IMG/VR virus record: IMGVR_UViG_3300034954_001525
Coordinates: 1-20,518 of that record
Source of the DNA: a virus
DNA length: 20,518 nt
Strand: one strand, 5' to 3'
Shown: piece by piece, positions 4,864 through 8,601 of the stretch
How positions within the stretch are numbered: the first letter of the stretch is position 1
How the letters are laid out: every line of letters starts with the position of its first letter
Position numbers and translations under genes: made by a program
The notes under the pieces: generated by a model
Told to the model about the DNA's origin: nothing
What the model saw: only the letters and a program-made list of their open reading frames with translations
The model's database searches: none

Positions 4864-5775
4864 ATGGCTATTTCAAGAGCACAACTAGCGAAAGAGCTTG
4901 AACCCGGCCTTAATGCGCTGTTCGGGCTTGAATACAACCGATATGAAAACGAGCATAGTGAAATCTTCGAAGAAGAGTCTTCTGACAGAGCTTTTGAAGA
5001 AGAAGTTATGCTTGGTGGTTTCGGAACTGCACCAGTTAAAAACGAAGGCGGAAGCATTAGTTTTGACGATGCACAAGAAACCTATACTTCACGTTACACT
5101 CACGAGACAATTGCTTTGGCTTTCTCTATAACTGAAGAGGCTATTGAAGACAATCTGTATGATCGTCTAGCTTCACGTTATACAAAGGCTTTAGCTCGTT
5201 CAATGGCTCAGACTAAGCAGATTAAAGCTGCTTCGATCTTAAACAATGCTTTCAACACTGGCGTTCACGCTATTGGTGATGGTGCTGCTTTATGTTCGAA
5301 CGCTCACCCTAGCTTATCTGGAAACCAGCGTAACCTTTTAGTAACTGCTGCTGATCTCAATGAGACTTCTTTAGAGCAAATGCTAATTGATATTGCTGGA
5401 ATGACTGATGAACGTGGTCTAAAGATTGCAGTTCGTGGTATGAAGCTGATTATTCCAAAGGAACTTCAGTTTATTGCAGAGCGAGTTCTTAACTCCAACC
5501 TGCGACCCGGAAGTGCAGACAACGACTTGAACGCGATGAAGTCGATGGGAATGTTGCCAGATGGGGCGGTTGTAAACCACTTCTTAACTGACACTGATGC
5601 ATTCTTCATCAAGACTGACGCACCTAACGGTTTCAAGTACTTCAACCGAGCGCCTATTAAGACCGCTATGGAAGGAGACTTCGACACAGGTAATATGCGT
5701 TTCAAAGCTCGTGAGCGTTACAGCTTCGGCGTTTCTGATTGGCGATGTGTATTCGGTTCTCCGGGTGCTGCTTAA
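4864..5775 (+). CDS. Major capsid protein (HK97-fold type)
   Basis: This 303-residue protein starts behind an AGGGGGG run. It forms the icosahedral shell. Features that fit phage coat proteins: an acidic N-terminal region (NEHSEIFEEESSDRAFEEE), a long extended-loop-like part with SISFDDAQETYTSRYTHETI (66-85), a long spine helix (ITEEAIEDNLYDRLASRYTKALARSM, about 89-114), a NAHPSLSGNQRN loop, and the late LIIPKELQFIAERVLNSN segment. It has no long prodomain before the conserved part, so a separate scaffold (2823) would be used, which is present. A strong terminator follows at 5808, closing the capsid operon. Confidence 0.88.
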   Translation: MAISRAQLAKELEPGLNALFGLEYNRYENEHSEIFEEESSDRAFEEEVMLGGFGTAPVKNEGGSISFDDAQETYTSRYTHETIALAFSITEEAIEDNLYDRLASRYTKALARSMAQTKQIKAASILNNAFNTGVHAIGDGAALCSNAHPSLSGNQRNLLVTAADLNETSLEQMLIDIAGMTDERGLKIAVRGMKLIIPKELQFIAERVLNSNLRPGSADNDLNAMKSMGMLPDGAVVNHFLTDTDAFFIKTDAPNGFKYFNRAPIKTAMEGDFDTGNMRFKARERYSFGVSDWRCVFGSPGAA

Positions 5776-5944: not shown

Positions 5945-6412
5945 ATGGCATCGACTACTTTTTCAGGCCCAGTAACTTCTAATAATGGGTTCATCTCAGG
6001 ATCAGGCTCCGTTGTTTCTTTAAGCAGTGACGTTTCTTTAACGTCAGCTTCACACGCAGGTCGTGTAATGCTTTTAGATAAAGCAGACGGCTTAACCGTA
6101 ACCTTACCAGCAGCTTCTGGTTCAGGTAATGTTTACAAATTCTTTGTAAAAACTACTGTAACTTCCAACAACTACGTTATTCAACTTAGTGGTAGTGACA
6201 CTATGTCGGGTGTTGCTGTTGTAGCTAACGATGGCGGCAATGGCGCTTCTATTTTTGAGACAGCTTCTGATTCCTCTACAATCACTTTAGATGGATCGAC
6301 TAAGGGTGGAATCTTAGGTGGAATGGTTGAACTTCAAGATTTGTATTCTGGTAAGTATTTAGTCAAAATACATCAATCAGCTACTGATACTGAAGCAACT
6401 CCTTTTTCTTGA
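5945..6412 (+). CDS. Beta-rich virion protein, putative
   Basis: This 155-residue protein starts with ASTTFSGPVTSNNGFISGSG, a start seen in phage structural proteins and fibres from marine samples. It is rich in Ser, Thr, Gly and Val with alternating small and hydrophobic residues, so it is mostly beta. The segment GRVMLLDKADGLTVTLPAASGSGNVYKFFV resembles small beta modules used as capsid decorations or on fibres. No signal peptide, membrane segment or enzyme motif is present. It is the first gene after the leader at 5856. Its position between coat and tail genes suggests a decoration or head-fibre protein; this is inference. Confidence 0.75.
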   Translation: MASTTFSGPVTSNNGFISGSGSVVSLSSDVSLTSASHAGRVMLLDKADGLTVTLPAASGSGNVYKFFVKTTVTSNNYVIQLSGSDTMSGVAVVANDGGNGASIFETASDSSTITLDGSTKGGILGGMVELQDLYSGKYLVKIHQSATDTEATPFS

Positions 6413-6426
6413 TTTAGGTGGTACTT

Positions 6427-6549
6427 ATGGGCAAGTTAAGAAGTAAAAAAAAGGTGGAAAAACCTGTAGTTAAAGAAGCTAAGGTTAAGAAACCTATTTC
6501 TATTAAAGAGAAACTAGAGCAAAAAAAGCTGGAGGAGCAGGATGGCTAA
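6427..6549 (+). CDS. 40-residue Lys/Glu-rich protein
   Basis: ATG at 6427 is preceded by AGGTGG with good spacing, and the frame runs 40 codons to TAA at 6547-6549, overlapping the next gene's ATG (6542) by 8 bp. The protein is almost entirely charged: basic first (MGKLRSKKKVEKPVVKEAKV), then KKPISIKEKLEQKKLEEQDG with helical character. It fills what would otherwise be a 129-bp gap, and the overlap resembles others in this window (2377, 7541), which supports a real gene. No family is recognised. It could bind nucleic acid or the virion interior, but that is a guess. Confidence 0.6.
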   Translation: MGKLRSKKKVEKPVVKEAKVKKPISIKEKLEQKKLEEQDG

Positions 6550-6820
6550 TTCAGATATTAAGTCAAAGCGCTTAACTGGGGCAGGTGCGGCTGGAGTCGG
6601 TCGTGCTCGTCTTCGGCAAGTGCAGGTGTTAACAAACTCTGGAGGAGCAGGTCAGTTAATTTTTACTGATGGTAACGGCGGTTCGACGGTTTTGGAATTA
6701 GATTTTTTAGCATCTGACTCACACTCAGTTAATATTCCTGATGAGGGTATTTTGTTTGCTAATGACATACACGTAGGAACTGCTACAAACGTATCTGCTA
6801 TTACTATTTTCTATAGTTAA
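6542..6820 (+). CDS. Small beta-rich phage protein, putative structural
   Basis: This 92-residue protein is preceded by GGAGGAG. After a short basic start (SDIKSKRLTGAGAAGVGRAR), the rest reads as one small beta domain: LRQVQVLTNSGGAGQLIFTD, a GNGGSTVLELDF strand pair, and SHSVNIPDEGILFANDIHVG. I know similar short proteins from marine phages near capsid genes; no role is established to my knowledge. It is probably a virion component. It is translationally coupled to the 40-residue gene before it. Confidence 0.7.
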   Translation: MANSDIKSKRLTGAGAAGVGRARLRQVQVLTNSGGAGQLIFTDGNGGSTVLELDFLASDSHSVNIPDEGILFANDIHVGTATNVSAITIFYS

Positions 6821-6835
6821 ATTTAGGGGGGTTTT

Positions 6836-7120
6836 ATGGCTACAACTAAGAATGTAAAGAGGCTACCTTCAGGTAGACTTCAATACAGGGGTGAAACTTT
6901 TTCTGGTTACAACAAGCCTAAACGAACCCCCGGTAAATCAAAGAAGAGTGCGGTTTTAGCGAAGAAGGGTAACGAAGTTAAACTGGTTCGGTTTGGTGAT
7001 CCTAACATGACTATTAAGAAGGATCAGCCAGCTAGACGCAAGAGCTTTCGTGCTCGTCATTCGTGTAAATCTGCATCAGATAAATTTTCTGCACGATACT
7101 GGTCGTGTAAAGCTTGGTGA
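6836..7120 (+). CDS. Conserved basic phage protein with RKSFRARH and YWSCKAW motifs
   Basis: This 94-residue basic protein starts behind a GGGGGG run. The first half is GETFSGYNKPKRTPGKSKKS, then VRFGDPNMTIKKDQPARRKS, FRARHSC and the end ARYWSCKAW. The order FGDPNM…RRKSFRARHxC…YWSCKxW is a pattern I recognise as a family shared by marine podo- and myoviruses, with unknown function. Two Cys and a His near the C-terminus could bind a metal, but the set is too small for a full zinc site in one chain. The high charge suggests nucleic-acid binding or packing inside the virion. It belongs to a run of such genes ending at 7924. Confidence 0.78.
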   Translation: MATTKNVKRLPSGRLQYRGETFSGYNKPKRTPGKSKKSAVLAKKGNEVKLVRFGDPNMTIKKDQPARRKSFRARHSCKSASDKFSARYWSCKAW

Positions 7121-7127
7121 GGTTTTT

Positions 7128-7313
7128 ATGAAAGAAGCAGAAGAAGCAATAGCAAGGTTAGAAAAACACGAAGCCGAATGTAGCTTACGTTATCAAAGGC
7201 TTGATGAGAAGTTATCTGAGTACTCTCAGTTTATCAAATCAGTTGATGGTAAGTTGTGGGCCATAGGAGTGTTAGTTTTAGTAGCCCCGGCTGTTCATAA
7301 TTTGTGGAAATGA
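7128..7313 (+). CDS. XhlA-like small coiled-coil membrane protein
   Basis: ATG at 7128 after GGTGAGG gives 61 residues; an upstream in-frame ATG at 7050 would overlap the previous gene by 71 bp and adds only readthrough-like sequence. Residues 3-36 form a charged amphipathic helix (EAEEAIARLEKHEAECSLRY), and residues 43-60 a membrane segment (LWAIGVLVLVAPAVHNLW) at the C-terminal end. This layout, soluble coiled coil then one C-terminal membrane helix, is that of XhlA-type lysis accessory proteins. It would sit in the inner membrane with its N-terminus in the cytoplasm. It lies among structural genes, 5 kb from the holin at 1728. Confidence 0.68.
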   Translation: MKEAEEAIARLEKHEAECSLRYQRLDEKLSEYSQFIKSVDGKLWAIGVLVLVAPAVHNLWK

Positions 7314-7314
7314 T

Positions 7315-7548
7315 ATGGGTTCTCGAGTAAAGACAGGTTCTAGCGTTAGTCCTTGCGGTGTTAATTATTACCGTAAAGGTGGAGCGGTCAGTAAAAAGTC
7401 TAAAGGCAGTAAAATTTGTCCTGCTGGGAAAGCTTGGGCAGAAAGAACATTTGATACCTACCCTTCGGCTTATGCTAATTTAGCTGCTTCTAAGTATTGC
7501 AAAGACCCTAATTACGCTAAATCCTCAAAAAGGAAAAAACGTGGGTGA
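7315..7548 (+). CDS. Small conserved Cys-containing basic phage protein
   Basis: This 77-residue protein starts 1 bp after the XhlA-like stop. The core SKICPAGKAWAERTFDTYPS then AYANLAASKYCKDPNYAK is a strongly patterned motif that I know from many marine phage genomes, with no function assigned. It is flanked by basic tails (SKKSKGSK at the start of the core, KSSKRKKRG at the end). Three Cys (about residues 14, 35, 62) are too far apart for an obvious metal site. The gene overlaps the next by 8 bp. A nucleic-acid-associated or virion-interior role is possible. Confidence 0.78.
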   Translation: MGSRVKTGSSVSPCGVNYYRKGGAVSKKSKGSKICPAGKAWAERTFDTYPSAYANLAASKYCKDPNYAKSSKRKKRG

Positions 7549-7924
7549 GTTAAAGAAATGGTTAGATCAAGATTGGGTACGCCTAGACAGCTCTGGGAAC
7601 ATTGCTGGAGAGTGCGGTACGTCCAAGAATAAGTCTAATCCAGATCGGTGCTTACCCAGAAGCAAAGCTCAGAGTCTTTCTAAGTCTCAGCGTAAAGCTA
7701 CTGCTTCTAAGAAAAAACGAGAAGGTAAAAAAGGTAAACAAGTTGTTTCTAACACTAAGGCGGCAAAGGTTACTAAAATGGCTGAAGGGGGCGCTGTTCT
7801 GAATACTCGTTGTAAACGCAAGTTTTACGGGAAAAATGTGGAAGGAACTGCTGTGGCTCGTGGTTGTGGCAAGGTTATGAAAAACAGGAGAAAAAGAACT
7901 AAAGGTTCTGTTTCTCAGTTTTAA
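7541..7924 (+). CDS. Basic two-module conserved phage protein
   Basis: GTG start behind AAGGA, 127 residues. Module 1 (about 1-78) has WLDQDWVRLDSSGNIAGECG, then NPDRCLPRSKAQSLSKSQRK and a very basic KKKREGKKGKQVV tail; I recognise this as a family common in cyanophages and other marine phages, function unknown. Module 2 (about 85-127) has MAEGGAVLNTRCKRKF, then ARGCGKVMKNRRKRTKG, a short motif that I recall as separate small proteins in related phages. The protein would be strongly basic. A fusion, or one ancestral gene split elsewhere, would explain the layout. Role unknown; nucleic-acid binding is plausible from charge. Confidence 0.78.
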   Translation: MGELKKWLDQDWVRLDSSGNIAGECGTSKNKSNPDRCLPRSKAQSLSKSQRKATASKKKREGKKGKQVVSNTKAAKVTKMAEGGAVLNTRCKRKFYGKNVEGTAVARGCGKVMKNRRKRTKGSVSQF

Positions 7925-7932
7925 GGTTAATT

Positions 7933-8601
7933 ATGACAACTTCTGGTAGTAAAAATTTTGAATTAGATGTCTCTGAGTATATTGAAGAGGCTTTTGAGCG
8001 CTGCGGTTTAGAGGTTCGTACTGGTTACGATCTCAAGACTGCAAGAAGGTCTTTGAATCTGTTGTTGGCAGATTGGGCAAATAGAGGTTTGAACCAGTGG
8101 ACAATCAAACAAAGATCATTAACGGTTGCTCAAGCTGATGGCGAATACGATTTAGGTACGGATGTGATAGACGTTCTATCGGTTGTTATCCGAAGAGCGG
8201 GTACGGATTATTCTTTGGAGAGGTTGAGCAGGGATGATTTTCTAACCATTCCAAACAAATCTACGCAAGGTAGACCAAGCCAATTTTTTCTGGACAGACA
8301 ACTTAACCCAAATCTAAAAATCTGGCCTATTCCTGAAAATAGTACAGACGTTATTTACTATGATGCTTTGACCCGAATGGATGATGCAGACGATTACACC
8401 AACACAATGGATATGCCATTTAGGTTTTATCCTTGTTTAGCTGCTGGTTTAGCTTACTACATTGCTCTAAAACGTGCTCCCAACAGAGTTCAAATGCTAA
8501 AAGCAATATATGAAGAGGAATTCGAAAGAGCTGCTACCGAGGATCGCGACAGGTCTTCTTTTAATGTTGTTCCTCAGTATGAGTACTATAGGACAAGCTA
8601 A
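7933..8601 (+). CDS. Head-tail adaptor / tail accessory protein (P22 gp4-like type)
   Basis: This 222-residue protein starts with the pattern EYIEEAFERCGLEVRTGYDL, then TARRSLNLLLADWANRGLN, typical of the adaptor that docks below the portal in podovirus-like phages (P22 gp4, T7 gp11 type). A middle beta part carries GEYDLGTDVIDVLSVVIRR, then GRPSQFF and the WPIP motif (131-134), and a C-terminal helical part YPCLAAGLAYYIALKRAP. The adaptor ring would extend the portal channel and hold the nozzle. The gene at 8903 has the same order of parts, so the two may be paralogues. The specific homology is inferred from pattern, not from a search. Confidence 0.78.
   Translation: MTTSGSKNFELDVSEYIEEAFERCGLEVRTGYDLKTARRSLNLLLADWANRGLNQWTIKQRSLTVAQADGEYDLGTDVIDVLSVVIRRAGTDYSLERLSRDDFLTIPNKSTQGRPSQFFLDRQLNPNLKIWPIPENSTDVIYYDALTRMDDADDYTNTMDMPFRFYPCLAAGLAYYIALKRAPNRVQMLKAIYEEEFERAATEDRDRSSFNVVPQYEYYRTS

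Follow-up and report, generated by a model that had tools for sequence, protein, structure and literature searches.

T4-like phages possess small basic internal head proteins that are encoded together with the head genes and are present in virions. In other viruses, Tlr6F, the family described by Pfam entry PF19058 or DUF5754 (PMC12220804), is found in Polinton-like viruses (PLVs), virophages, giant viruses and some phages, where its role is unknown (PMC4642659); no structure of it has been solved. DUF5872 (PF19197) has been reported in the giant virus CpV-BQ1 (PMC12085832). In the XkdF-type prohead protease, exemplified by gp125 of ICP1, the small domain here called A is attached as an additional module to one end or the other. 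The window, i.e. the whole 20.5-kb stretch of a virus record that was analysed, contains A as a protein of its own in a run of small genes placed between the major capsid protein and an SU10-type head-tail adaptor (Table 1). With moderate confidence, A and two further proteins of this run, B and C, are considered here to be conserved head proteins of the virion with a joint role in head assembly or genome packaging.

Organization and conservation of the gene run

Four small basic ORFs (K, A, B and C) are found where an earlier note on this DNA had placed them, with computed charges that agree with its description (Table 1). The start of the C ORF overlaps B by 8 bases. The other proteins of the window are mostly near neutral or acidic, the most basic one after the cassette being a small protein of 64 residues (1211-1405, net charge +10) flanked by the portal and holin genes. 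The head gene block of the window also encodes a GroES co-chaperonin (2377-2811), as do those of CRP-901 and 023Pt_psg01.

Table 1. Coordinates of the gene run and its surroundings in the window and, in the last row, of ORFs in related contigs
Feature	Position	Strand	Characteristics
Major capsid protein	4864..5775	+	Phage_capsid_4 (E 1.1e-15), phrog_371; upstream context of the cassette
K, K-rich ORF, 40 aa	6427..6549	+	net charge +7
Interleaved non-basic protein, 92 aa	6542..6820	+	net charge -2; weak phrog_28102 match
A, basic, 94 aa	6836..7120	+	pI 11.0, net charge +21
A motif RKSFRARHSC	7037..7066	+	residues 68-77, predicted helix
A motif YWSCKAW	7097..7117	+	residues 88-94, predicted C-terminal helix
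Interleaved non-basic protein, 61 aa	7128..7313	+	net charge -1; charged segment followed by C-terminal hydrophobic stretch
B, basic, 77 aa	7315..7548	+	pI 10.2, net charge +15; phrog_27331; YPSAYAN motif
C, basic, 127 aa	7541..7924	+	pI 10.7, net charge +25; phrog_23735; W..W...CG...CLP and K-rich tail
SU10-type head-tail adaptor	7933..8601	+	PF24175 (E 1.4e-15); immediately 3' of C
K/M/G-rich neighbours in relatives	L126 3270-3413; L074 6107-6418; L048 7718-7939; L234 2541-2855

The relatives of A, B and C are widespread, as had been claimed, each protein having hundreds of confirmed relatives in IMG/VR; searching Pfam directly with the three window proteins gave no usable family. The run of four basic proteins holds for these three and is less firm for the 6427 ORF, which has only 3 detectable relatives among the fetched loci, although contig L126 has at the corresponding position a K-rich ORF starting with MGKLK. 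The 6427 ORF may be a fast-evolving member of the run, its membership being uncertain. Relatives of the 6542 protein occur in 132 loci, with a constant place in the gene order, and those of the 7128 protein in 106 loci; for the latter, previously called XhlA-like, a Pfam search gave no family. The 6427, 6542 and 7128 genes are neighbours in the run and only candidates for functional membership.

Among the loci fetched, 154 contain both capsid and adaptor genes; their prevailing order is capsid–5945–6542–A–7128–B–C–adaptor, with an occasional gene absent, and some contigs in this set are counted more than once since they were fetched by several queries. This arrangement is seen in many viral contigs of marine origin. 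With the C relative from pelagiphage HTVC106P as query, a divergent group of phages was fetched in which B lies beside C in 80/80 loci, while A is found in 28, DUF6321 (PF19846) in 37 and both in 0 (Fisher p 6e-11, the loci in these co-occurrence counts not being independent samples). The same pattern is seen in the lineage of the window, where 99 loci fetched through B or C comprise 41 with A, 57 with DUF6321, 1 with neither and 0 with both, and in 15 related records of 28-65 kb (9 with A, 6 with DUF6321, 0 with neither, 0 with both). The median distance upstream of B is 178 bases for A and 163 bases for DUF6321. DUF6321 therefore replaces A in the same slot, and the two are mutually exclusive. 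They also look alike, DUF6321 being basic, with an RRKSFxAR stretch, a C-terminal W and a cysteine pair, but the hhalign probability of 2.4% does not support a homology between A and DUF6321.

The A-B-C trio is present in HTVC106P and in contig L276. The cassette genes adjoin a peptidase gene rather than the capsid gene in HTVC106P and HTVC203P, and scaffold and capsid genes flank B, C and DUF6321 in P-SCSP2. P-SCSP2 and HTVC023P encode, along with B and C, a small protein with an EF-hand-like stretch (NKDGKIS.EDF; L422 7165-7290; L421 7275-7640). Altogether, the cassette families span phages of Rhodobacteraceae, Pelagibacter, Vibrio and Synechococcus. A, B and C are under purifying selection: median dN/dS is 0.14 for B and 0.18 for C, and for A the nearest contig, L155, gives dN 0 with dS 0.10 (one usable pair), all remaining pairs being saturated at synonymous sites and yet ~80-90% identical as proteins.

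The suggestion that these proteins act together is strongly supported by the conserved order, the constant B–C adjacency, the replacement of A by DUF6321 and the natural fusions of C, B and DUF6321 described below. Independent occurrence of the families, which would have spoken against it, is not seen for B and C; A does occur elsewhere, alone or fused.

Sequence and fold relationships of A, B and C

In the family alignment, P28, V40, G54, D55, R74, W89 and W94 of A are invariant. The Cys/Trp motifs that first drew attention to this protein are real, with both tryptophans invariant, but its cysteines are not: 65 sequences have both, 5 neither and 0 a single one. The AlphaFold model of A is a confident compact fold (mean pLDDT 94.3), which in Foldseek matches ORF125 of ICP1 and phage proteins named XkdF/ChaB, and more weakly, in BFVD, predicted proteins of Tunisvirus and Chloriridovirus (prob 0.96-0.97, TM 0.50-0.57, E 0.07-0.19). 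A PDB search for A, by sequence and by fold, gave no match. At the sequence level, 10 of 24 members of the A family match DUF5754 in a consistent register, over positions 5-49 of the 49 of the profile, with a best E of 1.9e-4 at 21.8 bits, below the gathering cut-off of 27.4 bits that no member reaches; window A itself has no match to this profile at E<1. From its fold and this weak sequence signal, A is probably a phage branch of DUF5754/Tlr6F. The CRP-901 homologue of A is labelled 'HVA1 family protein', a name for which a Pfam search gave no family. Scanning bacterial genomes with the ICP1-type A module returned only two contigs, both binned as MAGs.

B and C appear related to the two halves of a single family. 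Members of the B family match positions 1-51 of DUF5872 above the cut-off (CRP-2 gp70, 3.9e-11; contig L404, 1.9e-10), and members of the C family match positions 51-115 below the cut-off (C72C1, 4.6e-5; L404, 0.0066), the region of C that matches the right half carrying W..W...CGR...CxP. Window B and C themselves are below detection against DUF5872 and are linked to it via these relatives, since window B aligns to the DUF5872-matching members of its family and window C to the C family. A fold search with C in BFVD found one DUF5872 protein and several cyanophage DUF6321 proteins; a sequence match of C in the PDB was at chance level only. Due to the coverage of positions 1-51 by B members and 51-115 by C members, the overlapping B and C genes look like a split DUF5872.

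The cysteines of C are likewise kept or lost as a pair (both in 50, neither in 5, a single one in 0 sequences), and so are those of B in a small alignment. Such pairing within A, within C and within B hints, at the sequence level, at a disulfide or a metal site. A strictly cysteine-based zinc motif is ruled out, since both cysteines have vanished together in some members.

Several smaller features surround B and C. In relatives, the cassette is adjoined by further small proteins rich in K, M and G (Table 1), whose repeats, such as MRGGGMVKKMRGGGMVKK, have a GG stretch in common with B and C; each of the latter carries a single KGGAV or EGGAV. This GG stretch may serve for processing or for binding. 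In some relatives, another basic ORF (SGQWSARKAQMLASAYKKAGGGYKD) stands in B's stead and C is a cysteine-free version, as in contig L048 (7065-7531). In contigs L036 (7622-8055) and L048 (7277-7710), the stretch RGCG...RRKKT, C-terminal in C, forms an ORF of its own, which suggests that C is composed of two modules.

Fusions, virion proteomes and alternative readings

Beyond the window, A is often part of longer proteins, 22 of 28 of which have matches to Peptidase_S78_2 (PF14550) and to head-maturation-protease PHROGs; ICP1 is an example, its capsid protease gp125 having A as its C-terminal part. Because the proteins that match phrog_1530 carry an XkdF-type protease, its name 'DNA methyltransferase' is probably a misnomer. 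Seven of the long A-bearing proteins match DUF5824 and four match ChaB. An XkdF protease was not found in the 15 related records of the window lineage, so that any docking role of A cannot depend on this enzyme there. B and C are also found fused. In contig L317, a C+B protein is encoded directly upstream of A, and in S-BM3 a single protein consists of C+B+DUF6321.

Cyanophages link these modules to the virion. Mass spectrometry of S-CREM2 virions identified 7 unique peptides for the whole of ORF160 (128342-129235) and 4 for the whole of ORF137 (108049-109521) (PMC10665884, Table 3). ORF160 holds, in frame, C at 128759-129034 (E 1.8e-5) and the N-half of DUF5872 at 129119-129223 (E 0.003), and its B stretch scores 4e-7 with the B profile when searched in a small sequence set; ORF137 holds DUF6321 at 109291-109512, in frame (E 3e-12). 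A is not detectable in S-CREM2, in line with its replacement by DUF6321. In S-SCSM1, whose virion proteins were established by mass spectrometry, ORF29 (42662-44215) is annotated as 'virion protein'; profile searches find C and DUF6321 in it, and a B-like stretch can be read by eye. Judged by their sequences, the cyanophage C and B modules are distant relatives of window C and B. The proteomes support the virion presence of B, C and DUF6321 relatives, wherever in the particle these may lie and whether or not they touch DNA. In the literature on virion proteomes, none was found with a stand-alone A or from a phage of the window lineage. Virion proteomes back the idea of packing in the head where relatives of C, B and DUF6321 are concerned; for A, the backing is indirect and comes from its fusion to the head-maturation protease.

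Peptide counts as low as 4 and 7, together with a charge that makes sticking to DNA or heads plausible, could also mean that these are late regulatory or nucleic-acid-binding proteins of the cell and that their carry-over into virions is contamination. We regard this as very improbable, since A is fused to a prohead protease, C, B and DUF6321 are fused in one protein annotated as a virion protein, and the genes are placed among head genes.

The same basic charge and virion presence would suit effectors that are packed in the head, injected with the DNA and active on host nucleic acid. One long A protein is fused to a cytidylyltransferase, a family that has been detected in cyanophage virions (PMC3037559; PMC9602691; PMC10665884) and that others proposed to be carried into the host (PMC9602691). 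However, a domain of effector type is absent, and strong conservation across phages of such different hosts as Rhodobacteraceae, Pelagibacter, Vibrio and Synechococcus is more readily explained by a structural role than by a host-specific one, which makes ejection improbable.

A structural role need not involve the interior of the head. Cofactors of packaging or of the neck would act at the portal vertex alongside terminase and adaptor, making DNA coating in the head unnecessary. Gene neighbourhoods point in this direction: the P-SSM2 genes lie between gp15 and gp16, S-CREM2 ORF137 is flanked by the terminase subunits, the S-BM3 gene follows gp16, A and B of CRP-2 are upstream of terminase and the window cassette is directly 5' of the adaptor. 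But this position differs between phages, and A is fused most often to the prohead protease, an interior component; this reading is accordingly rather unlikely.

Proposed role and comparison with known systems

As head proteins, A, B and C would be expressed late and end up in the virion head. The likeliest role for A, and for DUF6321 where it takes the place of A, would be that of a small folded module docking to a prohead component; this would account for the fact that other phages carry A on their maturation protease. B and C would act as short modules, each with two cysteines and a lysine-rich tail, that lie inside the head on the packaged DNA, much as basic internal or core proteins do in other phages. 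By analogy, we infer the position inside the head, the contact with DNA and the docking of A, assuming that what holds for its distant relatives holds for this phage too. Very common marine-virus families, namely DUF5754/Tlr6F, DUF5872 and DUF6321, would thereby be tied into one functional set, placed in the virion and beside head maturation, and many late phage genes called 'hypothetical' would gain a better annotation. The earlier description of an undescribed system is fair for the set, but not for the single families, which have Pfam names.

Compared by description only, B and C resemble the basic internal head proteins of T4-like phages in being small, basic, encoded among head genes and, for their relatives, present in virions. 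Unlike the module of the XkdF-type protease, window A stands alone, without a Peptidase_S78_2 domain. The likeness to DUF5872 extends to arrangement, its halves being adjacent with the N-half before the C-half, as in window B then C, but it is one domain there and two overlapping genes in the window. The phage branch of the A family has protease fusions, whereas none was found described for Tlr6F in the literature. An ancient set of small basic core proteins (Tlr6F/DUF5754 and DUF5872) acting together inside the virion during packaging might be common to tailed phages and to eukaryotic giant, Polinton-like and virophage viruses, a proposal that is tentative and on balance doubtful. If it were true, the phage fusions of A to the head-maturation protease would hint that Tlr6F, conserved across these viruses, takes part in particle assembly. 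Tlr6F is common in giant and Polinton-like viruses, and its function could be tested directly in a phage host system.
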